NCBI RefSeq assembly: GCF_000383975.1
Contig: NZ_KB913020.1
Span: forward strand, 124,001 to 188,000
From: Natronorubrum tibetense GA33
GTDB taxonomy: Archaea; Halobacteriota; Halobacteria; Halobacteriales; Natrialbaceae
Direction of reading: 5' to 3'
Length of the DNA stretch: 64,000 nt
In this document: positions 27,382 to 39,718 of the stretch, piece by piece
How positions within the stretch are numbered: position 1 is the first letter of the stretch
Layout of the letters: the number at the start of each line of letters is the position of its first letter
Translations under genes and position numbers: made by a program
The notes under the pieces: generated by a model
Databases searched by the model: none
Told to the model about the DNA's origin: nothing
What the model saw: the letters and a program-made list of their open reading frames with translations, nothing else

Positions 27382-27631
27382 GACGGCTGAATTCTTCCGT
27401 TCTCGCGCTGCCAGCACACCGTCGAGCGCCGCGGCGGGGTGAGTTAGGTGGACTTCGAGGACGGGGAGGGCGCGACGGTTTCGTCCACGCTGCCGAGCGC
27501 GGGCCGATCGACCGGATTCGGTAGATCGCGGTTCGGTCGGCGCGCGCGGCTTCGTCGATCGGATCCGATCCGCTGGTCCGCCGCCGCAGCCCACCGTAAC
27601 GGCCATACGAGTCGATCACGTGAGTTGGGCC

Positions 27632-28417
27632 ATGAACTTCGCGCCGGGGGCCTGGAAGTACGCTGCGCTCCCGCTGCTCGCTGCGCCGTTCGCGTTCGTT
27701 TTCAGCGTGACGGCGAGTATCCTTGCCATTGCACTCGGTGCCGGAACACTCGCGTTCTTCCGCGATCCGGAGCGAACGCCGCCGCCGACGGGCGTGGTCT
27801 CGCCGGCCGACGGCAACGTCTCCGTGCTTCGCGAGGAGGGCGACCGCGTTCGGCTGGGGGTCTTCATGAACGTCTGGCACGTCCATGTCGTCCGCGCGCC
27901 GTTTGCGGCGACGGTGACCGATGTCGAGCACGTCTCCGGGGCGAACCGGCCCGCCTTCTCGAAGGACTCGGATCGAAACGAGCGCGTGCACGTGCGGTGT
28001 GAAACCGAGTCGTCGAACCTGCCCGCCTCTGAGTCGTCTGAGGGAGTGGGGAACGGGAGTGGTGACGACGATCTGGCCGCCGAGGACCCGCACGCGAAAG
28101 CCGACCAGCCGCCAAGCAACGCCGAGGTGACGCTGATTGCCGGCGCGTTCGCCCGCCGGATTCACCCCTACGCCGAGCGCGGCGACGACCTCGAGCGCGG
28201 CGACCGAATCGGGCACATCGCGTTTGGGAGTCGAGTGGATCTCCTCTTTCCGCCCGAGGTGGCACTCGAGGATATCGACGTGGAGATCGGGGACGCGATG
28301 ACGGCCGGGGAGACGGTGGTGCTCGAGGCTCCGGCTGACGCGGCAATCGATCTCGGCGCTGGATCTGATTTCGACGTTGGTGGGCTCGAGGACGAGCGGG
28401 ACGAGTCGAGCGCCTGA
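27632..28417 (+). CDS. pssD: Archaetidylserine decarboxylase (PssD type)
   Basis: This 261-residue pyruvoyl enzyme of the Asd/PSD family starts MNFAPGAWKYA; a GTG four codons earlier is possible. Two hydrophobic N-terminal helices anchor it. VSPADGNV (56-63) and the histidine-rich VWHVHVVRAPF (81-91) are the conserved active-site parts, and the self-cleavage site is FGSRVDLLFP, cut between Gly199 and Ser200 to generate the pyruvoyl group. An acidic Ser/Glu insertion at about 124-165 separates the halves and is unusual in length. It converts archaetidylserine to archaetidylethanolamine, the step needed for PGF-CTERM lipid anchoring. Confidence 0.88.
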   Translation: MNFAPGAWKYAALPLLAAPFAFVFSVTASILAIALGAGTLAFFRDPERTPPPTGVVSPADGNVSVLREEGDRVRLGVFMNVWHVHVVRAPFAATVTDVEHVSGANRPAFSKDSDRNERVHVRCETESSNLPASESSEGVGNGSGDDDLAAEDPHAKADQPPSNAEVTLIAGAFARRIHPYAERGDDLERGDRIGHIAFGSRVDLLFPPEVALEDIDVEIGDAMTAGETVVLEAPADAAIDLGAGSDFDVGGLEDERDESSA

Positions 28418-28465
28418 TCGCTCGTCCGGTATGTGCGCTCGGTTGTGTCTGCGGTGGAGGGGTTG

Positions 28466-28786
28466 CTACTCGCAGATGTACTGCATCGTTTGATCGGTGA
28501 CGGTATCGATCAGTTCGGGAGTTACGCGAGCGACTGCCCGATCGACGTCGGAATCCTGTAGCGAAACGATGGCCCAGGGAGACACGAACGAGTCGCGATT
28601 GAGGGTTCCAGTTTCGAACGCACCGGTGAGGGGAACGCTCTCGGCGTACTCTTTGGTCGTAATTCCGAGCGCGATGTACTGGTCTCCGACAAACGGATGG
28701 CTCTCATCGCTGATGAGCAGATACGGCCGGCGCGGCGTGTTCCCAAATGGATCCGTTGCAACGACTATGACGCCGCGTTCGTGCAT
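28466..28786 (-). CDS. PemK/MazF-like toxin
   Basis: A 106-residue protein with the MazF fold signature: MHERGVIVVATDPFGNTPRRPYLLISD, where a basic strand-turn follows the GxxG-like region, then ALGITTKEY and the Ser-rich PWAIVSL strand. MazF-type proteins are endoribonucleases cleaving mRNA. Its ATG overlaps the stop of the upstream winged-helix gene by one nucleotide (TAATG), as in coupled toxin-antitoxin operons. A growth-arrest role is inferred from family and context. Confidence 0.85.
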   Translation of the reverse strand: MHERGVIVVATDPFGNTPRRPYLLISDESHPFVGDQYIALGITTKEYAESVPLTGAFETGTLNRDSFVSPWAIVSLQDSDVDRAVARVTPELIDTVTDQTMQYICE

Positions 28787-29166
28787 TACTGCTTCTCCGA
28801 CGACTCGTTGTCCGTCTCTTGGTCATCGAGATCGAGAAGCTCGGCGTCCCAGTCCGAATTCTGATCGTAATAATCGCCTTCGAACTGTTCGGCGACGGTC
28901 TGGAGACCGACGACACTCGCCGTGTGGGCGTCGTAGGCTTCCGGGTTGATCGCCCAATACTGGCCCTTGTGACGAACGAGTCCGCGACTCTCGAGTCGGC
29001 TCAGCGTGGTTCCGACGCTCCCGCGTGGGATCTCGAGTTCCTCTGTAAGTTCACCGGCTCGATACCCCGTTTCGGGGTTGGCCGCGAGGAACTCGAGGAT
29101 CCGACGCCCGTTCGTGTTCTCGTCGGGCAGATCGGTCGGACGGTAGTTCTCGAAATCGACGGGCAT
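28786..29166 (-). CDS. Winged-helix antitoxin-like regulator
   Basis: A 126-residue protein starting MPVDFENYRPTDLPDENTNG. The middle is a MarR/winged-helix DNA-binding domain (RILEFLAANPETGYRAGEL, then SVGTTLSRLESRGLVRHKGQY). A C-terminal acidic stretch (about 95-126, DWDAELLDLDD) could neutralise the toxin. A DNA-binding domain plus a charged tail that binds the toxin is the common antitoxin design. The upstream extension of the frame (to 29226) is unlikely because it lacks haloarchaeal composition. Confidence 0.78.
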   Translation of the reverse strand: MPVDFENYRPTDLPDENTNGRRILEFLAANPETGYRAGELTEELEIPRGSVGTTLSRLESRGLVRHKGQYWAINPEAYDAHTASVVGLQTVAEQFEGDYYDQNSDWDAELLDLDDQETDNESSEKQ

Positions 29167-29285
29167 GTGTAACAGTACGTAACAGCTTGTAATAATTGTG
29201 GTGGTGGTTCCCTGGTCAGCCCCCAAGAAGTATACTAATCCGAACTATTCATAATTTATAACTATTCCCGAACATGATTTGAAAT

Positions 29286-30071
29286 ATGCCTGTTCAAAAA
29301 CTCGACTTATACGATATTATTGTCGATATATTTCCTGGTTTAGTCGCTGTATTTATCTTTTTACCGTTGGTCTTAGGACCGGGAACTGCCTATTCAGACG
29401 CATTGGACCTGTTAGGTATCGAAGCAACTTTGATAATCATAGTGCTTTCATACGTGATTGGTCGAATTGTACATGGCATAGCTAGCCCTTTCGATAAATC
29501 AATCTCGAAATTTGGCTCAAACATAGATAAATTCTTCTTGGAACACCCTATTTACGAAAAATTAACTAAGAGATTTGGTTTACATCTTTCTTTTGAAGAT
29601 CATATCAGAGATGGACTGGCACCGTTTACCCCTTTCACTATGAAAACTGTAATGGTACATGAACTCCATGCTGAAATAAATGAAAAGTACGATGTTAATA
29701 CAAAGAGTATTGATAGACACGATTTTAATGACTTAAAACACGTATGCCATTCCATTCTTTACAACAAGCCTGTTCTTTATAGAAGATATGAAATTCTTAC
29801 AACCTTTTTCCGGAGTATGCATACGGTATTTGGTCTGTCTTTGATATTTTATTCCATTTCTCTATTGGTGTATGAATATGTTGGATTGGGGGCTACCGAT
29901 ACCTTCTGGGCCTATCTCTACTTTAACGACCTAAGAATTGTGTCACTAATCTTGGTTCTACAGTTGATCTTATTCCTAATATTTTACTATCAAAAACGAA
30001 AATTCTCTCACAGAAGGAATAGGGCCCTAATCTATGATACTGTTATTGAACTGAAGGGGAAGACCGAGTGA
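29286..30071 (+). CDS. Membrane protein of the AT-rich island
   Basis: A 261-residue protein in clearly AT-rich DNA. Hydrophobic helices at about 12-30 and 47-63, a long polar middle (70-175, many Lys/His/Asp), and two more helices near 190-210 and 225-245. Arg/Lys use and AGA, ATA and TTA codons differ from neighbours and suggest a foreign origin. The cytoplasmic middle has no recognised motif. Its place between a toxin-antitoxin pair and the next island genes would fit a membrane effector in a defence module, but this is inference. Confidence 0.78.
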   Translation: MPVQKLDLYDIIVDIFPGLVAVFIFLPLVLGPGTAYSDALDLLGIEATLIIIVLSYVIGRIVHGIASPFDKSISKFGSNIDKFFLEHPIYEKLTKRFGLHLSFEDHIRDGLAPFTPFTMKTVMVHELHAEINEKYDVNTKSIDRHDFNDLKHVCHSILYNKPVLYRRYEILTTFFRSMHTVFGLSLIFYSISLLVYEYVGLGATDTFWAYLYFNDLRIVSLILVLQLILFLIFYYQKRKFSHRRNRALIYDTVIELKGKTE

Positions 30072-30909
30072 CACTGCTAATATACTCATTCTTTTTTGGG
30101 GATTGAACGTCGACAGATCCAGTTTATCGAATATGCATGAGATTCGAATATCCGTGCATATGATGACGCAGTTCCGGACGTGAGACCGTATCGGAATTCT
30201 GGAAACTGCTCCCCGTTGCTTAGCTGTTGTTCGCTCGATTTGGGTACATGGGCAACACAAACCCCACATACCGTGATACACTCCGTAAATTTGAAAACGA
30301 GAGGTTCCCGAACCACAGAGCACTTCGGTTTGAGTATCAAAATCACTTCGAACGCTTATTCGTCCAAGTGTGGAACTTCGCCGACGCCGCTGAGATTCAA
30401 AACCACACCGATCCGACAATCACACATCTCGTTTCGTATCTGCTCGATTAGGAGTGCCGGATTGTTACCCTCGAAATGCAACTCGAAACGCTTCTCGGAC
30501 GCATTCGAAACACCGACAGAACCAGCTTTAGAACCTCGTTGACGGCCAGTAGGCTTACTTTCTCCCGGTCGAATAACCCATCCGACGGGGGGAAGGAGTA
30601 CTGTCGTTGCCGACAGGGTCCGTTCGACGTGAGACATCGAACCCACCGTCACCGATCGGGATCGTTCCAACGTCACCGACGCCTGATCGCCGATCGGCCC
30701 GTCCGGTTGACACACCACCAGCGGATGGGGAGCTTCGATGTCGGCCTACCACCGCCGATGTCTTCTGATACAGTTGATTCGATCAGTTATGCCGAAACCC
30801 AATGTGGGTGTCCCCAAGGGGACTGAGCCAAAAAATTACAGCCCCCCGCCCGACCTCCGCACGCAGATCTCCAGTTGATCCACCAGAAATGATGGTGTTC
30901 AGTCGCTCC
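30072..30909. other. Spacer of the AT-rich island with a truncated gene
   Basis: Between the membrane-protein gene and the pentapeptide gene. It holds the small frame at 30248-30451 and otherwise only GC-rich, Arg/Ser-rich shadow frames (30450-30850). It may be a recombination junction between host-like and AT-rich DNA. Confidence 0.55.
30248..30451 (+). CDS. Small conserved haloarchaeal protein, apparently truncated
   Basis: A 67-residue frame MGNTNPTYRDTLRKFENERF... that resembles a widespread haloarchaeal family of about 100 residues (start M-x-x-T-N-P-T-Y-R-D, later ADAA-x-x-x-N-H-x-D-P). The family normally continues with a helical LLAHERE-type C-terminus; here it stops at VSYLLD. Lys, Asn and Phe content is higher than usual. 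It could be a remnant or a short functional variant. Confidence 0.5.
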   Translation: MGNTNPTYRDTLRKFENERFPNHRALRFEYQNHFERLFVQVWNFADAAEIQNHTDPTITHLVSYLLD

Positions 30910-32397
30910 TCACGATGTTGCTCTCCGGCCTAATACAAATACCAACATCGCCAATAGCAACGTTCCAATTGCTGTTTGGCCTAGAGCAATCCACTCGTTA
31001 GGCCCTAAGGGGGTTAGACCGCCGTCACTTGTACTAATGAATCGACGTAGACTATAAAATAGGAAGTCGAAAATATATTCTATAGAGAAGTTCCCTGAGA
31101 ATCTATATCGTATTATTTCGCCTGAACTTCGTTGAATTCCCCAAATCGGGTAGATTACCGCACCCAACAGGATTGCACCCAATGAGGCTAAAAGAACTTG
31201 TTTAGTGCTTTCTCCGTATTTCATAGTCCACCGTAACACAGTCCAGCGGAACCAGGAAATTTCCCCACGTGAATACGCTATTTTCCGACTCGTTTCCTTC
31301 TCTCGAATATTGAATTGGCGCCGTTGTTCTGGGACGGGGTTTTCCCTAAACAACTGTTTTATATTCCTGTATATCTCCTCTGCATCCTCAAGGTCATCAA
31401 GACTACAATCATGAGACGACGAGATGGGACATCTAGTAATAAGACGATTGAATGCAGCCAGCACTTGATATCTGTACTTGAGACCTTGCATATACTCTTC
31501 TCTTCTAGAATGATAAGTATCCTCAGGATCTGAATCTGAGATAGGGCCCCGTTCACCACAGATATCGCTCGAAAACCCAGTCTTCTCCTTAATAATATCC
31601 CATTCGGCATTTCGATCTGCAATGAACTCTCTACAAATTTGGGTGCCAAAGTTGGTCTTATGATCTACCTCAGCATCTCGGAGATCCGTATCAAATAAAT
31701 CAGCATCGACGAGGGAAGTTCCACGGAGATCAGAGTCCACGAGAGACGCACTTTCTAGCATCGCTTTACCACAATCTGCTTGATGTAACTCCGCCCCATC
31801 TAATTCTGCACTACGCAGATTTGTACAAATGATCTTAGCATCATGAAGCTCGGAATCAATGAAAACCGCATCAGCTGCATCGGCATGTTGTAATTTCGCT
31901 GAGGGCATATTAGACGAGCGGAAGTTAGCATTATGGAGGGTAGCATGTTGAAATCGAGTATCAATACAGTCTGCCTCTTCAAAACACGCGCCCGTAAGGT
32001 TGGTAGCCTCACTATTGAATTTCGTCGATCGAAGATTTGCCTCTGAAAAATCAGCTAAGTCTAATTGTGTGCCCTGAAAGTTAGCGTTAGTCAAGTCGGA
32101 CTCGCTGAAATTAGCATTATATAGATCCATATCCTCGAAATCAAGACGATCACTTAGATGAATTTCTGCTAAATATATCCCATCAATACGAGAAGGTGCA
32201 CTGTCCCACTTTCTGGCGAGTACATCAACCGGCTTTTCAGTTGTTTTAGCATGCCATATACAATGGTCTTGATCCCTCCAGAGAGGTTGGTCACAAGAGA
32301 TCGGAGGAATACCCTCTGGAAGATTTTCTTCGTCTTCCGAATAGCCGCAGGTTTGCTCGTGAGTACTCACTAATCCCAGATTCGTCGATCTAATCAC
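30910..32397 (-). CDS. Pentapeptide-repeat protein with C-terminal two-helix channel-like domain
   Basis: This 495-residue protein has four parts. (1) N-terminal Cys/His motif (Cys17, Cys35, Cys46, His49: CGY...ISC...DHCIWH), probably a zinc knuckle. (2) A pentapeptide-repeat solenoid, about residues 88-245, with A(D/N)Lxx-type units such as DLTNANF and DLRGTSL. (3) A helical linker rich in Arg/Glu. (4) Two membrane helices near the end (LLASLGAILLGAVIYPIWGI and IGTLLLAMLVFVL) around a loop resembling a pore loop. The canonical TVGYG filter is absent. A channel of the Ion_trans_2 kind is possible. AT-rich codon use differs from the host. Confidence 0.8.
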   Translation of the reverse strand: MIRSTNLGLVSTHEQTCGYSEDEENLPEGIPPISCDQPLWRDQDHCIWHAKTTEKPVDVLARKWDSAPSRIDGIYLAEIHLSDRLDFEDMDLYNANFSESDLTNANFQGTQLDLADFSEANLRSTKFNSEATNLTGACFEEADCIDTRFQHATLHNANFRSSNMPSAKLQHADAADAVFIDSELHDAKIICTNLRSAELDGAELHQADCGKAMLESASLVDSDLRGTSLVDADLFDTDLRDAEVDHKTNFGTQICREFIADRNAEWDIIKEKTGFSSDICGERGPISDSDPEDTYHSRREEYMQGLKYRYQVLAAFNRLITRCPISSSHDCSLDDLEDAEEIYRNIKQLFRENPVPEQRRQFNIREKETSRKIAYSRGEISWFRWTVLRWTMKYGESTKQVLLASLGAILLGAVIYPIWGIQRSSGEIIRYRFSGNFSIEYIFDFLFYSLRRFISTSDGGLTPLGPNEWIALGQTAIGTLLLAMLVFVLGRRATS

Positions 32398-32478
32398 TTA
32401 TACTGTCCGAAATATCCATTGAGTATCAGTTCCACCCCATTCGATTAACTTATAGGATAAGTCCGTAACTATCTGACA

Positions 32479-33558
32479 ATGGGAGTCTTCGAGATCGACT
32501 CAAATGAGTTCGAAGACGGGCCTGAGTTTAACAGATATTTATCCAGGAATTATAGTGGGTTGTCTAGCGAAGACCTTTACATCATCTCAGGTGTCACCGA
32601 ACTCACACAGACAGAGTTTGAGAATAGACTAGAAGAACGTAATTGGGAGGTCGACGAAGAATACGGAGTCATAAAGAAAATCGGTCGCCAATATTCCCCA
32701 ATCAATCGAGCGGAGGCGTACCTTCATTTCGATGAAGAAAAAGACCTGATATTCTTTTACACTGATCAGAGGAAGACGGAAGAGATCAACGATGCTATTG
32801 TTCCGCTTTTCAGGAAAATAAGCGGTGTCCACTATCTTTATATAAGTCCCCGGATCTTGAAGAAGGTAACTGAACAAATTGCAGAACAAAACGATTCAGC
32901 CAAGGTTACTGAATTCATCGCAAAAAGAACCAAAGGAACAGAAATCCCTGCGGCCGAGAGGCCAGATAAAGAGAGAACGATCAATTATTATGGTGATGAT
33001 GGTTTACGAACGCTCCGGGAAGTCGAAGAACAATATGGTGTGCTCCCTCACATTCTAGAAATTTCAATCCCAGATGAGTTGGACTTTAGAATGGATAAAG
33101 AAGGTGTGTTTAAATTAAAAAGTGGCTCCCTTCACTTGATGTTCCATTATATTGATGAATGTATAAACCGATGTTTAGATATTAAGAACGCATATGATAG
33201 TACACGAATCAATGAAATCGAAATATCTGAAGGGAATAGAGTTTCGCAGTCTACTCCAGCCAGAATTGAACTTGACTTAAAATATGAAGATTTAGAACCA
33301 CTTCAGGCAAGCCTCCAAGGAAGTGATTATGCGTTAATCGATACGACAGCTGAACGTGGTTCAGTCTATTTCTCTAGCAAGATCTATGACCAGGATAGTA
33401 ATCTATTCTTTAATATTCGGGCGGACGAGAACGCAATCCGAGTTTTTCCTAGGGAAAAACGCGAAATAAGTACGTTCTTCCGCTTTTTTGAAATTGTTCA
33501 GTCGACTGTAGATGAGTACGCTGAAGCTGAATCTATTGATTACCCACTGGCAGGATAA
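32479..33558 (+). CDS. Unrecognised protein A of a two-gene module
   Basis: A 359-residue soluble, acidic protein in AT-rich DNA, beginning MGVFEIDSNEFEDGPEF. It contains a mixed beta/alpha N-terminal half with an NRAEAYLHFDEEKDLIFFYT segment and a C-terminal part with FFNIRADENAIRVFP. I do not recognise a family or catalytic motif. Its stop overlaps the start of the next gene (TAATG), showing a coupled pair. It is divergent from the pentapeptide-channel gene, with about 80 bp between the two starts. Confidence 0.78.
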   Translation: MGVFEIDSNEFEDGPEFNRYLSRNYSGLSSEDLYIISGVTELTQTEFENRLEERNWEVDEEYGVIKKIGRQYSPINRAEAYLHFDEEKDLIFFYTDQRKTEEINDAIVPLFRKISGVHYLYISPRILKKVTEQIAEQNDSAKVTEFIAKRTKGTEIPAAERPDKERTINYYGDDGLRTLREVEEQYGVLPHILEISIPDELDFRMDKEGVFKLKSGSLHLMFHYIDECINRCLDIKNAYDSTRINEIEISEGNRVSQSTPARIELDLKYEDLEPLQASLQGSDYALIDTTAERGSVYFSSKIYDQDSNLFFNIRADENAIRVFPREKREISTFFRFFEIVQSTVDEYAEAESIDYPLAG

Positions 33559-34706
33559 TGAACACTATAAAAAAAGAACTTGAGATTCTCGAGTACTACG
33601 AAGATGAAGTATCTAATGACAACTATGAGAACACTAAGGAAGAGATACTTGACGATCTATTGGACGACGAAGACGCTATAGAAGCTGCTGAAGAACAATA
33701 TGAGAATAGAAAAGAAGAATCAAAACATAAAAAGAAAGTGCGAACAACGCTGATGGCTGCTTTCCTTAGGAATGGTCCAATAGAACGAGTCACAAATTGG
33801 GAATTCAGGCGATTATTTCCACTCAGAACATTAGATGTAGACTCAGCAGACGTCCTCGTAGGAAATCAAACTGATGGGTCAATCATCCTTATAATCATAC
33901 TTTCTTTACGTAAAAGGCCAGAAACGGGAATCGATGACGCATTAGAAATGCTTGGGGGCGTGAGAGACAATAACAGCGCCCTAAGTGATGATATAAATCT
34001 AGACTTCCGGAATGACCGTATTCAAACAGCTATTGCTATTGAACCAGCACGAGCAAATGACACAGCGGTTGCTATCGAAGAATATGAACAATCAGTCACA
34101 GACCCAGAAGATTTCTATGTATGGCGTATTACTGGAACAGAAGGTGCAAAAATAGACATCTATACTGATTTCCCAAGTGATCCTGGTCAAAATAGGTGCC
34201 ATGATGGAGATCTCGGACAAGTATTAGATCCTGGAAGAGAAATTATGGATTCGCCCCATGTTCTACCAGACTTTTTTTACGACACCCATCATAGTTTACT
34301 TCTTGAACATACAATAATAAAGATGGCCAGTAATCATCTTGACACAGATATACCAAATACACACTTTTCGACACAAGAGCTACGGAATTACTTTGACAGT
34401 ACATTATATGGCTCAGATTCGACCCATAAGGCTTCAATACTAACAGGAAGAGTAATCCAGTTATGGGAACATCTTGATATAATGACTAAGGTTAGCGATT
34501 CCAATGATAAAATTGATGACGGGAGCACAGTATACCGTCTTAGATCTCGGAAACAAAACCCTCAAACAATATATGATGATGTTTCGGACAATTATGATGA
34601 AAAATGTAATGAGTTTTTAATAGAATCGAAAGCTATGGAACAGACAATTGAGCAGTTTGAAGAAGACAAGGGAGTTCAAGCCGATTTGGCGACGTTCAGT
34701 TCCTAG
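33558..34706 (+). CDS. Unrecognised protein B of a two-gene module
   Basis: A 382-residue protein starting MNTIKKELEILEYYEDEVSN. An acidic helical N-terminus (to about 60) leads to a central core with RRLFPLRTLDVDSADVLVGN, a hydrophobic strand and LRKRPETGIDDALEML. This order of Asp-strand-basic-helix recalls PD-(D/E)xK nuclease-like folds, but the E-x-K pair is missing, so nuclease activity is not claimed. The C-terminal third around STQELRNYFDSTLYG looks like a winged helix. It overlaps gene A by one base and ends the AT-rich island. Confidence 0.78.
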   Translation: MNTIKKELEILEYYEDEVSNDNYENTKEEILDDLLDDEDAIEAAEEQYENRKEESKHKKKVRTTLMAAFLRNGPIERVTNWEFRRLFPLRTLDVDSADVLVGNQTDGSIILIIILSLRKRPETGIDDALEMLGGVRDNNSALSDDINLDFRNDRIQTAIAIEPARANDTAVAIEEYEQSVTDPEDFYVWRITGTEGAKIDIYTDFPSDPGQNRCHDGDLGQVLDPGREIMDSPHVLPDFFYDTHHSLLLEHTIIKMASNHLDTDIPNTHFSTQELRNYFDSTLYGSDSTHKASILTGRVIQLWEHLDIMTKVSDSNDKIDDGSTVYRLRSRKQNPQTIYDDVSDNYDEKCNEFLIESKAMEQTIEQFEEDKGVQADLATFSS

Positions 34707-34952
34707 TCTTTCTCTTGCTTCCCCTTACGGTTGCCCGTCGCGAAGATTGATCTCCCGAATATGAACACGAGAGCAAGTTTTCTGTGTTCACTCACTTCTT
34801 GTCTTTTATCGCCGGCAACTCGGTCTCTCTGCCGACATTCTTACACTGGTGTCACAGAACTATCGGAAATAGTAGTTAGATGGAGACGGTTCGTGTTCAC
34901 AAGGCCGATCTGAAGTGAATAGCCAGTATCTCAATTATTGCTTGGTGGGTCG

Positions 34953-35249
34953 TTACGAGGTCTCGGTAGTAGCCTCGAGTTCGCTCGCATCTAACTCCTC
35001 GTTCAGATAGGCTTCCCCCTCCTCAGTAATTCCATAGAGGCCTCGAGAAATCCGCTCGAGCAGTCCATACTCCGCGAGAACCGGACAACGATTCCTGGCA
35101 TGGCCGGACGTTGGCCCACCGAGATCCTCGATGGCCGTCGGCGTCAAATTGCCGTGTTCACGGACTAACTCGAGTATTCTGTCGTCCGACGGAACCATCC
35201 AGTCCGCAGCTTGGCGCATCTTGTTCGAAGCATCGAAGTCCATAACCAT
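34953..35249 (-). CDS. Winged-helix regulator, PhiH1-repressor-like
   Basis: A 98-residue protein from the ATG at 35249; the frame also has a TTG further upstream and an internal MRQAADW start. The motif MRQAADWMVPSDDRILELVR, the recognition helix TAIEDLGGPTSGHARNRCPV and the wing LLERISRGLYGITEEG match small haloarchaeal regulators related to the PhiH1 repressor. It is common on plasmids and proviruses. It is divergent from the coiled-coil cluster, which it may control. Confidence 0.82.
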   Translation of the reverse strand: MVMDFDASNKMRQAADWMVPSDDRILELVREHGNLTPTAIEDLGGPTSGHARNRCPVLAEYGLLERISRGLYGITEEGEAYLNEELDASELEATTETS

Positions 35250-35444
35250 ACGAATACTGGTTATCTGTGCCAATTTGCCACCAGTCTGCGTAGAATTGCC
35301 TAGAGCAACGCAGCACTGACGACTTGCCAGTAAGCTATATTAATGGTTAGTGAGAAGTTGTTGTTGACCTGCCCTTTCGGACTGAAAGTCCGACGTGCTA
35401 AGGACACGCCGGGGTCGGGTCACCCGTTACACGAGATTCCGACC

Positions 35445-35633
35445 ATGCGAAACGAACGCTCGAGGGGTCATAGAGATTACCCCATAGACGACCGTACAGC
35501 TAGCCAGCGAGACGACCACCCCCTAATCAACCTGGACGACGAAGCCGTCGCACTCCCACTTCTCAGCGATAACGCGCTTGTCGTCGCCAGCGAGGACGCC
35601 ATCCTCGAGTCCCGCGGAGGACCCCGCCGATGA
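35445..35633 (+). CDS. Small hypothetical protein heading the coiled-coil cluster
   Basis: A 62-residue frame starting MRNERSRGHRDYPIDDRTAS. The second half (PLINLDDEAVALPLLSDNALVV) is acidic and haloarchaeal in style. The stop overlaps the next gene's ATG (four-base overlap), which argues for a true gene in the operon. Function unknown. Confidence 0.6.
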   Translation: MRNERSRGHRDYPIDDRTASQRDDHPLINLDDEAVALPLLSDNALVVASEDAILESRGGPRR

Positions 35634-36046
35634 CCGACTACATCGTCCCCACGGGCCGAGGCTACCTCGGCACGCACGCCGTCAGCCCCGGGCGGACGGT
35701 CACGCTCTCGACCGGCGTGCTCGGCGACCGGGACTGGACCGATCGGTCTCGAGTCCACGCACTCACACACGACGACGGCGTCGCACTCGTCCCCGCGGCC
35801 GAGTCGACGGACCCGCTCGCCGCGTACGTGCTGTGCGATCGCTACGACGCCGCTCGAGTCGCCGTCGGACAGGTCGCCGTGGCCGAACTCGGGCTCGAGG
35901 CCGGCGATTCGGTCCGCGTCTACGATCTCGCGGTGATCGACGACCGACCCGGCCTGTTGCTGGTCGACGCGGCCGACGATCCGCGACTCGAGGCCGACCG
36001 CGACGCGGGGGCCGACGGTGAACGCGATGCGGGGGCTGAGCCGTGA
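35630..36046 (+). CDS. Hypothetical protein with possible AbrB-like barrel
   Basis: A 138-residue protein: MTDYIVPTGRGYLGTHAVSPGRT, a beta-rich centre, and AVAELGLEAGDSVRVYDLAV, which has the LxAGDxVRVY pattern of SpoVT/AbrB-type swapped-hairpin barrels. A Glu/Asp/Ala tail is low complexity. It overlaps both neighbouring genes, so it is part of a tightly packed operon. A DNA-binding or antitoxin role is possible but unproven. Confidence 0.7.
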   Translation: MTDYIVPTGRGYLGTHAVSPGRTVTLSTGVLGDRDWTDRSRVHALTHDDGVALVPAAESTDPLAAYVLCDRYDAARVAVGQVAVAELGLEAGDSVRVYDLAVIDDRPGLLLVDAADDPRLEADRDAGADGERDAGAEP

Positions 36047-36345
36047 CCGACGATTCTGATGATTCCGAGCCGTCCCCTCCCGCGGAGCAGTCCCCTCCCG
36101 TCCCCGAGGCGATGACCACCGAGTGGTTCGTCGACCACCTCGAGGAACTCGACGCACACGTCGCGCGGCTTCTCGAGTCCATCCCGGAGACGGAGGCGTT
36201 CGACGACGAGACGCGCGCCCGTACCAGGCGTCGTCTGCGGGAGATCCGCGCCCAAATCAACCCGCTGTTGATCACGCTTCGCTCTCGCGTCGATACCGAC
36301 GACCGAGGCTCTGGCAGCGAGTCCGATGATCCGCCACTCGAGTGA
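36043..36345 (+). CDS. Small helical hypothetical protein
   Basis: A 100-residue acidic protein starting at a GTG that overlaps the previous stop (GTGA). A Ser/Pro-rich start leads into long helices (TTEWFVDHLEELDAHVARLL and ETRARTRRRLREIRAQINPL). No motif is recognised; it could form a coiled-coil partner of the 335-residue protein downstream. Confidence 0.68.
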   Translation: MTDDSDDSEPSPPAEQSPPVPEAMTTEWFVDHLEELDAHVARLLESIPETEAFDDETRARTRRRLREIRAQINPLLITLRSRVDTDDRGSGSESDDPPLE

Positions 36346-36408
36346 CGACTCGGACGGCCCTTCCGACGCCCGCGTATCGTCGAACAACTACCCACACCAT
36401 TCGAACCG

Positions 36409-37416
36409 ATGCCATCACCGACAGCAGCCGAGACCGAGGAATCGACCCCTAACCAGCCCGCCCACTCCGACCGACGCGACGAGTTCGACCACCTCCGCGA
36501 GCGTCTCGAGACCCTCGAGACCCGCCTCGAGCGCAAAGACGACCGGATCGACGACCTCGAGCGGGACCGCGACCGACTCGAAGCGACCGTCGACCAGCTG
36601 GACGGTCGGGTCGCGAAGCTCGAGGCCAAAACCGACCGACTCGAGACCGAAACCGACCGACTCGAGACCGAAACCGCACGCCTCGACAGCGTCACCGACG
36701 CGGCGCTGAACAAGGCCGGCGCGAACAAGGAGCGAATCGCGGAACTGCAGTCCCGCGAACTCGAGAAGGGCGCGCACCTCCGGACGGAACACATCGACGA
36801 GCACGCCGTCACCGTCCCGGAGGGCCGTCTCGAGCGCATCGAGAAGGACGACGGCGCGGCCTACTACCGGCTGCCCGAGTGCGCCGACCCGCTCGAGCGC
36901 GGCGGCGACGTCTCGCTCGCCTACGGCGACCTGCTCCCGATCCAGCAACTCGCGCGGATGGACGACCAGCGGCGTCGTTCGGCGGCGAACGCCCTCCCCA
37001 CCAGACTGGCCGCGAAACTCTGGCAGGCGCGAACCGACTCGAGCGTCGGCGACGATCCGTGGGAACGCGGCTGTAAGGGCGTCGACGAGTTCGTCACCGC
37101 GAGCGACCTCAGACACTGGATCCGCCGCAACGAACCCGGCATCAGCGAGAGCTACGCGAAGAAGCTCGTCTCGCGAACGATCGATTCCCTCCTGGACCTC
37201 TCGAAGAACCGGCTCGCGGTGCGCCGGAAGACCGAACGCAAGAACGGCCTCGAGTACACCGAACGACGGGTGATTCTCCCGACGGACGCCTCGATCCCCG
37301 GCGAGACGGGACGGAATGAGGCGATCGACTCGACCCACCGGATCGAGTCGACGAGCCAAACCGAGAACGAGACACCCGACTCGAGCGACCCGGAGACAGC
37401 TGACGTCCACGGATAG
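36409..37416 (+). CDS. Coiled-coil protein with C-terminal winged helix
   Basis: A 335-residue protein. Residues 20-115 are a long heptad-patterned coiled coil, with three related heptad-like DRLETET units. The central part (150-215) has conserved LPECADPLERGG and GDLLPIQQLARMD. The last third (about 225-300) is a winged-helix-like DNA-binding domain (ASDLRHWIRRNEPGISESYAK, then RTIDSLLDLSKNRLAVRR). Such proteins occur beside replication or partition genes of haloarchaeal plasmids and viruses. It is the last gene of the cluster. Confidence 0.8.
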   Translation: MPSPTAAETEESTPNQPAHSDRRDEFDHLRERLETLETRLERKDDRIDDLERDRDRLEATVDQLDGRVAKLEAKTDRLETETDRLETETARLDSVTDAALNKAGANKERIAELQSRELEKGAHLRTEHIDEHAVTVPEGRLERIEKDDGAAYYRLPECADPLERGGDVSLAYGDLLPIQQLARMDDQRRRSAANALPTRLAAKLWQARTDSSVGDDPWERGCKGVDEFVTASDLRHWIRRNEPGISESYAKKLVSRTIDSLLDLSKNRLAVRRKTERKNGLEYTERRVILPTDASIPGETGRNEAIDSTHRIESTSQTENETPDSSDPETADVHG

Positions 37417-37744
37417 CCCCGTCCACGGGATCGAAACGCCCCTCGAGAGAGGCCCCACTTCCACTACCCACCCACCAACGCAGCCACGCGCGGGTGCTCG
37501 CTTCACCGCGGTAGCCGCTGGTCTACCGCTCGAGCGGTCCTCGGCGGTCACGTCGGAGACGCCGAACCGATGCCGTCCGGAGACAACAGCTGTCCACGGA
37601 GCCACTCGAGCAGTGAGCCGTCGGATGCAGTTCTCGAGGCGACGGCGGCCCCACTCGCCACCGTCTTGCCGTCCCCTACGCAGTCACCACCGTCTTGCTG
37701 TCCCCTACCGCAGTTATTTCTGCCTGGCGAGCATCCCGTCAGCT
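37417..37744. other. Intergenic region with an imperfect tandem repeat
   Basis: About 330 bp. Between about 37657 and 37712 a 28-bp unit containing CACCGTCTTGCTGTCCCCTA occurs twice with a few changes. The rest shows no gene; it precedes the small gene at 37745. Confidence 0.55.
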
Positions 37745-37933
37745 ATGTATCGTGCAATCCTCCCCGAGGGGCAGATCGACTGCGATCGATACGAGCACAC
37801 CGAGAACGGTATCGAACTCTACGACGCGGACGACCAGTTCATCGCGTTCGTGCCGTACGCGAACCTGCACGCGGTGGCGGACCAGGATCTCTACACGAGC
37901 GGACGCGGAGACGAAGAGCGGTCGATTATGTAG
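37745..37933 (+). CDS. 62-residue conserved haloarchaeal small protein
   Basis: The protein MYRAILPEGQIDCDRYEHTE then GIELYDADDQFIAFVPYANL belongs to a widely seen class of about 60-residue haloarchaeal proteins with a beta-sheet pattern and a conserved FVPYANL motif. Function is unknown. It is convergent with TFIIB. Confidence 0.8.
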   Translation: MYRAILPEGQIDCDRYEHTENGIELYDADDQFIAFVPYANLHAVADQDLYTSGRGDEERSIM

Positions 37934-37956
37934 CCGATCGTCTCGGTAGCACGCGA

Positions 37957-38907
37957 TTAGGCCGGCTGCTGATCGATCGCCTCGAGCTGTTCCCGGTACC
38001 GGTTCCGAACCGTCACTACGGTCGTCTGTGCGGTGTCGGCGACGGCTCGCTGCGGGATCGTCTCGTCACAGAGCAGACCGGCCGCGTAGATCGCCGCCGC
38101 GGCGAAGCCGGTCGGGGACTTCCCGGAGTGCAGTCCCTGCTCGGTCGTCGTGTCGATGATCTCGACGGCCTTCGTCTCGACCTCTTTCCCGACGTCGAGT
38201 TCGGAGCAAAAGCGAGGGACGAACTGACGCGGGTTCGTGGGCTCGAGATTGATATCGAGTTCGTCCGCGATGTATCGGTAGGTGCGACCAATCTCTCGTT
38301 GATCGACGCGTGAAACGGAGGTTACCTCCTCGAGGCTGCGCGGAATATCCTCCTTACGACACGCAGTGTAGAGGGCGCTGGTCGCGACGCCTTCGATCGA
38401 TCGGCCGCGGATGAGGTCCTGATCGAGCGCCTGTCGGTAGATGACGCTTGCGGTCTCCTTGACGGGTCGCGGAACGCCGAGCGCACTGACCATGCGGTCG
38501 ATCTCCGAGAGCGCGTACTTGAGGTTGCGTTCGCCGGCGTTTTTGGTCCTGATTCGCTCCTGCCAGACGCGGAGTCGGTGGAGTTGGCCGTGCTTGTCGG
38601 CCGACATGGAGTGACCGTTCGCGTCCTTGTTGCGCCAGTCGATCGTCGTCGTCAGCCCGCGGTCGTGCATCGACTGGGTCAGCGGCGCGCCGACGCGGGA
38701 GAGTTCGTCGTGTTCCTGGGCGTTGAACGCCCGCCACTCGGGACCGTAGTCGATCGGATCTTCGGTCAGGACGAGACCGCACTCTTCACAGACTCGTTCG
38801 CCGCGGTCCGGGTCGTGGATGATCGTATCGGTTTCGCAGTCAGGACATAGCCCGGGCTCCGTTTTCGCTGATTCTGTCTCCGTATGATCGATAATGGACC
38901 GCGTCAT
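37957..38907 (-). CDS. tfb: Transcription initiation factor TFIIB (TFB)
   Basis: A 316-residue general transcription factor that bridges TBP at box A and RNA polymerase. The zinc ribbon has Cys21, Cys24, Cys40 and Cys43 (CPDC, CEEC), followed by the B-finger/linker (YGPEWRAFNAQEHDELSRVGAPL). Two cyclin folds follow, about 105-200 and 205-310. Haloarchaea carry many TFBs; this is one of them. The ATG at 38907 (MTRSIIDHTETESAK) is preferred over the longer open frame, whose extra residues are basic and Ser-rich. Confidence 0.95.
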   Translation of the reverse strand: MTRSIIDHTETESAKTEPGLCPDCETDTIIHDPDRGERVCEECGLVLTEDPIDYGPEWRAFNAQEHDELSRVGAPLTQSMHDRGLTTTIDWRNKDANGHSMSADKHGQLHRLRVWQERIRTKNAGERNLKYALSEIDRMVSALGVPRPVKETASVIYRQALDQDLIRGRSIEGVATSALYTACRKEDIPRSLEEVTSVSRVDQREIGRTYRYIADELDINLEPTNPRQFVPRFCSELDVGKEVETKAVEIIDTTTEQGLHSGKSPTGFAAAAIYAAGLLCDETIPQRAVADTAQTTVVTVRNRYREQLEAIDQQPA

Positions 38908-39718
38908 CAGTAGTGGAAAGAGCCGTGCCGGCACTGTAAGGGGTTCACATGGTTTCGCGAGAAACGCCGACTTACTGCTTCGACCGTCGACTGACGACGA
39001 ATATTCGCCCAGCCGTCTCTGTACGGGTGTTACCAAGAGTTGCGAGCGACTATCACGCGGTGGGAGTCGCATCGGGCGACGCAGTATCGATACGATATCG
39101 CCGTCCCCGATCGAGTCGGTCAGCGAACCGTGTCGGGATCGTCTCTCATCGGTCGCCCGTAGCTTACCGACGTCGAGAACCGGTTTCGCCTGACGATGTT
39201 CACTGTGAACACGAGACGTGAAATACGGCAATCGCCCCGACGAGAGGCCGGCGTAAATCACGCGTTCACCGCGTAAATTCGAGTTTCTCCTTCGAACTGT
39301 CGCTCGACTTTATGTCGCTACGAGCAAACGTTCCGAACCAGTGTCGTGTCGCACCTTTACCCCTCGACTTGGAGACGCGTTTCGTTGCCCCCGACTCTTC
39401 CGTACGTACGCGAAAGATACTCTGCCACAATCGATCGATACCGTTCGCATCGATCCGCTACCCGGATCGGCCACCGAGGTGTCGATTCGGTGCAGTGTCG
39501 GCAGACCGGGGAAGTCGATCCGTACCCGCTTTGCAGCCGGTGCGAAACGTGGCCGTCCTTAAGAGTGTCAGTATTGGTGTACAACTTGGTGTGTCAATCG
39601 TGATTGCGATTTGCCGATCAAACAGACAGCGGAACCCGTCGACCCGACAGTATGGTAGACGTTTCTCGCCCAACGGATGGGACTGGCCCGGCCGTTCAGT
39701 GCCTGGAGGTCGAGAGTA
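38908..39718. other. Long intergenic region between tfb and the winged-helix membrane gene
   Basis: About 810 bp. Frames here are basic and lack haloarchaeal composition. A 15-bp perfect palindrome (39197-39211) is the clearest element. Both divergent promoters must lie here. Confidence 0.5.
39197..39211. promoter_or_regulatory. Perfect palindrome TGTTCACTGTGAACA
   Basis: A 15-bp dyad around a central T. It resembles an operator for a small dimeric regulator. It is about 290 bp upstream of the tfb ATG and 510 bp from the next gene, so its target is unclear. Confidence 0.45.

Follow-up and report, generated by a model that had tools for sequence, protein, structure and literature searches.

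Genes A and B are an undescribed fixed pair and make up a conserved archaeal module. We think it somewhat probable that this module acts against viruses or other mobile elements and that, in the lineage of the copy studied here, a lost nuclease output has been exchanged for a membrane effector. A broader reading stands for us at an even balance: a nuclease-based archaeal immune module would, at least twice, have turned its nuclease into a non-catalytic relay gating a newly recruited membrane killer, and one sensor pair would occur in coexisting active-nuclease, channel and single-pass forms, a natural series.

Archaeal immunity is poorly represented in existing catalogues (PMC12988326). The A-B pair is present in ~15% of Halobacteriales genomes, and searches of the libraries used here matched it to no family that has been named or characterised. 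If the exchange is real, one sensor pair can be compared with a nuclease, a channel-like or a single-pass output, and effector swapping by immune systems becomes directly testable in genetically tractable haloarchaea.

The locus

The window is the whole 64,000-base stretch analysed, positions 124001-188000 of a 214,970-base haloarchaeal contig. The sequence-only reading that preceded this work had reported open reading frames of 359 and 382 residues; both are present, and the TAA of A and the ATG of B share one base (TAATG). It described a two-gene module. The pair is real, but the description is incomplete at this locus, where a third, divergent and exclusively linked membrane gene lies upstream of A (Table 1). 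The likely start of this pentapeptide gene is the GTG at 32370, which gives a protein of 486 aa. TATA-like boxes at 32395-32403 (cacttatac, for the pentapeptide gene) and 32448-32457 (aacttatagg, for gene A) are conserved in a four-species alignment and lie about 25-31 nt from the respective starts, consistent with a putative divergent promoter.

Table 1. Features of the A-B locus, in window coordinates
Feature	Position	Strand	Description
Gene A	32479..33558	+	359 aa; TBP-like-repeat protein, proposed nucleic-acid or infection sensor
Gene B	33558..34706	+	382 aa; inactivated PD-(D/E)XK nuclease with C-terminal winged helix
Degenerate nuclease core of B	33849..33902	+	D98 codon to I113-I114-L115 codons, from alignment
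Divergent pentapeptide-repeat protein with C-terminal two-TM channel-like region	30910..32397	-	ORF of 495 aa
Putative shared divergent promoter region	32395..32457	.	Four-species alignment and sequence reading

Distribution

Gene A occurs in 59 of 392 sampled Halobacteriales genomes and in 20 of 393 genomes sampled from the phylum. Named carriers include Halobellus, Halobaculum, Haloferax, Natronoglomus, Natrinema, Candidatus Methanoperedens, Methanoculleus, Methanoregula, Methanothrix and a Pacearchaeota assembly. The pair is found on chromosomes, on six haloarchaeal plasmids and in one pleolipovirus, Harhisp1, which Haloarcula hispanica carries as an inducible provirus (PMC7911831). No relatives turned up in scans of IMG/VR; the methanogen A and B proteins, used as queries, matched nothing on bacterial plasmids, and a query with the A protein of L028 gave no phage matches. 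Alignment A1 was too diverse for degenerate-pattern scans, and a subset was used for the genomes.

Co-occurrence across genomes, proposed earlier as a check, is complete: B lies 3' of A on the same strand in all 76 full-length archaeal loci left after removal of duplicates, which come from haloarchaea, methanogens and other archaea. Only short or weak matches to A occur without B. The pairing is not due to chance, given this constant order and the low nonsynonymous divergence from a Halobellus copy described below. Some copies have decayed: two genomes (G011 and G024) have fragments of A, B is split in L027, and A carries a frameshift in L114. A suspected A+B fusion in L020 was rejected, as A and B are separate genes there.

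Folds and families of A and B

Searches of Pfam, NCBIfam, PADLOC and PDB sequences gave no confident match for A or for B, and the earlier statement that no known family could be recognised holds for these libraries. It needs one qualification: A matches phrog_24372 (phage proteins of unknown function) at 1e-99. Profile and structure searches for confident matches to housekeeping families found none.

The A model (pLDDT 86.4) contains repeated beta-alpha-beta4-alpha-like units, modelled as TBP-like repeats. Foldseek matches it to RdgC (prob 1.00, E 7e-4), to RnlA (prob 0.98) and more weakly to TBP; among viral models, RdgC-like proteins and TBP homologues match. Whole-chain TM-scores of the structural matches are low (0.15-0.32), so the resemblance is at the level of fold only. 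RnlA and RdgC are matched at TM-scores of 0.17-0.29; they have no sequence similarity to A, and Pfam matched no RnlA domain in A. RnlA contains TBP-lobe domains (PMC7221094).

Relatives of B carry the signature EPLxE...FDxLLxN...IFxECKSS, with D...E-C-K or D...E-A-K in 40 loci, QCK in one and close variants in others. The strands and helix of a beta-beta-alpha core are present in the B model (pLDDT 83.7). With this core and the D...(E/Q)-x-K motif, the B family belongs to the PD-(D/E)XK nuclease superfamily. The winged helix that had been read from the sequence of B is supported by the model, for which Foldseek finds forkhead domains and the C-terminal domain of Cdt1 (prob up to 0.94, E 0.04).

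Genomic neighbourhood

In 20 genomes, 219 PADLOC models were matched at 1e-15 by proteins encoded no more than 7.5 kb from A-B; control regions of these genomes, at a distance of ~200 kb, gave 22. Since PADLOC models overlap in specificity, this compares sets of models, not gene counts. Near A-B the matches include a DISARM methylase, type I and IIG restriction, PDC-S11 and others, and in the control regions they are mainly Cas12f/TnpB-like, IetA and single matches.

Genes for archaetidylserine decarboxylase (27620-28417) and TFB (37957-39261) bound the interval that holds the window copy. On related plasmids the same interval is nearly empty in Natronorubrum aibiense, holds VapBC in Haloterrigena alkaliphila, and holds a SIR2 protein and others in H. 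salifodinae; pHTUR04 of H. turkmenica has an AAA ATPase at a distance of two to three genes from TFB. The interval 27620-39261 thus behaves as a variable cargo site on Natrialbaceae plasmids. In the window it also holds a likely toxin-antitoxin pair at 28466-29226, two genes that overlap by one base: one encodes a PemK/MazF-like protein (E 0.006, short of the curated cut-off), the other an HTH protein. Between this pair and the pentapeptide gene, 29286-30071 encodes a 261-aa protein with about four predicted membrane helices and no Pfam match.

The neighbourhood and the mobility of the pair suggest an antiviral function. A rival reading is that A-B serves plasmids and viruses in replication, copy-number control or maintenance: A would bind DNA in the manner of TBP, B would do so through its winged helix, and the membrane protein would be an anchor. 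In seven loci an Orc1/Cdc6-like gene is found no more than four genes from A-B, and in Harhisp1 it adjoins the pair; several copies are on plasmids, and both folds are DNA-binding-like. Most loci, however, have no such gene nearby, and long chromosomal contigs carry many of them; the neighbours are restriction and defence genes, presence across the sampled genomes is patchy, and the nuclease site is kept in most relatives. We regard a maintenance role as unlikely, if the strongest of the alternatives. The pair had been put forward as a candidate new system, and this stands: the module is conserved, mobile, placed amid defence genes and unnamed in every library searched.

Loss of the nuclease motif and gain of membrane partners

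The window B does not have an intact catalytic E-x-K. The PD-(D/E)XK-like core lacking this pair of residues, noted earlier from the sequence, is confirmed by alignment: relatives have FDxL...ECK or EAK, and the window protein retains D98, with I113-I114-L115 where E-C-K would stand. E-x-K has been lost in 29 loci, in two separate ways. The motif site reads IIL, VIL, LAV, LAL or AHV in a clade of 10 loci that includes the window, and xCE or similar in another clade of 18. Altered motifs without a recognised partner occur in five more loci: L037 (SxK), L094, and L149, L150 and L151, the last three being a small haloarchaeal A-B group with E-x-E for E-x-K and no recognised membrane partner.

Each clade has its own membrane gene. 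Exactly the 10 loci with hydrophobic or unrelated residues at the motif site have the pentapeptide gene, divergent and 43-247 bases upstream of A. Its product has two predicted C-terminal membrane helices and a conserved C-terminal GES...LGRRA region; no Pfam channel domain was matched. The tail is a predicted two-helix, channel-like segment, and its two helices suggest that it may form a pore. Exactly the 18 loci of the other clade have a single-pass protein of 163-211 aa, without pentapeptide repeats, encoded on the same strand 34-135 bases upstream of A. B is inactive in all 28 partner loci. A profile search of the 76 loci found neither partner type elsewhere, with none in the other 47 and none at intact-B loci.

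The 29th inactive B, in L115, has the motif DNCI, and its contig ends 66 bases upstream of A. The same genome has a complete gene for a 449-aa pentapeptide-channel protein, in the right orientation and 141 bases from the start of another contig. We infer that the two contigs abut, which would make this an eleventh pentapeptide locus.

Close homologues of both partners are exclusive to A-B surroundings. Among 332 genomes of the order, the six strongest homologues of the pentapeptide tail (252-292 bits) are all beside A-B and the next scores 157 bits; the 15 strongest single-pass homologues (179-230 bits) are likewise all beside A-B and the next scores 79 bits. Harhisp1 carries the single-pass protein and A-B as cargo beside an orc1-type gene (L024, 2017-4933), which suggests that this virus may be able to exclude rivals. 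Harhisp1 also has a pentapeptide gene, which was not counted as a partner because its repeats cluster with those of the window protein but its tail differs.

We built trees of A and of B, the latter with the motif columns removed. In both, the two inactive sets fall in separate clades with intact relatives nearest: the pentapeptide set forms a single clade that sits within intact copies from haloarchaea, and the single-pass set adjoins three intact copies (L043, L118 and L120). Separate clades imply two transitions, and the membrane gene differs between them; in the A tree L138, one of the single-pass rows, falls outside this intact trio, which leaves room for a third change.

Between the window and Halobellus L080, dN is 0.13 for A, 0.19 for B and 0.30 for the pentapeptide gene; synonymous sites are saturated, so the window pairs yield no dN/dS ratio. 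Low dN with saturated synonymous change indicates that the inactive B is not decaying. The comparison shows purifying selection.

The coupling of an inactive B with a membrane gene might be an inherited coincidence in two clades, with no functional exchange. Two transitions are too few for a tree-based test, and a tree-aware sign test cannot reach significance with them. Yet two unrelated membrane genes in different orientations were each gained with the loss of E-x-K, linkage to the partner is kept despite low identity, and the missing partner of L115 was found. Coincidence seems to us improbable, by a hair more so than a maintenance role.

It is less probable again, and doubtful, that the pentapeptide protein is a DNA mimic or immunity protein like MfpA or Qnr that restrains A-B at the membrane instead of acting as its effector. 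Its pentapeptide-repeat matches are strong, the Qnr and MfpA models match below their cut-offs, and the divergent arrangement is presumably co-regulated. But it is found only with an inactive B, the opposite of what a nuclease restrainer predicts; its conserved C-terminal region is a membrane segment, and the partner in the second lineage lacks the repeats altogether. Equally doubtful is a window B still active through displaced catalytic residues: D98 is conserved and PD-(D/E)XK enzymes can relocate the lysine or glutamate, but the ten aligned clade members have no common E or K at motif positions.

Proposed mechanism

In the reading we prefer, an exchange of nuclease output for a membrane effector, A would recognise a nucleic-acid or infection cue. 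In most lineages B would be the effector, as a PD-(D/E)XK nuclease with a winged helix. In the window lineage, B without E-x-K would have been kept by selection as a non-catalytic adaptor, and the divergent pentapeptide-repeat protein would have taken over the output. The tail of this protein would permeabilise the membrane or depolarise it and so halt the infected cell. The second lineage would have gone through the same exchange, but with a single-pass membrane protein unrelated to the first.

Comparison with known systems

The closest systems in logic are the short prokaryotic Argonautes, where a nuclease-derived protein that has lost its catalytic activity recruits separate effectors and hands the signal on to them (PMC12904381). 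They show no homology to A-B, which differs in having active and inactive versions within one gene-pair family.

The best nuclease match of the B model is the nuclease domain of Shedu (SduA), a PD-(D/E)XK anti-phage nuclease, at a Foldseek prob of 0.91 but with E 0.19 and TM 0.17/0.32. Shedu resembles B in joining a PD-(D/E)XK effector to extra DNA-binding regions. It differs in that A-B needs the obligate partner A and that the window copy is inactive, and there was no Shedu/DUF4263 Pfam match among 21 B members (E<=0.1) and no PADLOC Shedu match. Intact B members weakly match HEC-02B, a model of the PADLOC candidate system HEC-02, over the nuclease core (best E 5e-4); in the member examined the match spans just 47 residues. 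HEC-02 needs both HEC-02A and HEC-02B; A matches no HEC-02 model, so the pair is not assigned to it.

Kiwa similarly combines a membrane protein (KwaA) with a DNA-binding-type partner (KwaB), but the window locus has three genes, and A, B and the pentapeptide protein have no PADLOC Kiwa match. Hailong uses HalA as a membrane channel effector, and the pentapeptide protein matches the HalA model weakly, at 15.5 bits against a cut-off of 250. Unlike in Hailong, no nucleotidyltransferase partner was found among A and B, and neither matched a HalB-like model. The module is accordingly placed in none of Shedu, HEC-02, Kiwa and Hailong. Weaker relatives of the pentapeptide-channel protein occur in other contexts in 131 of the 332 genomes (e.g. 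L176-L178), and pentapeptide proteins with related channel-like tails elsewhere are possible effectors of other systems.
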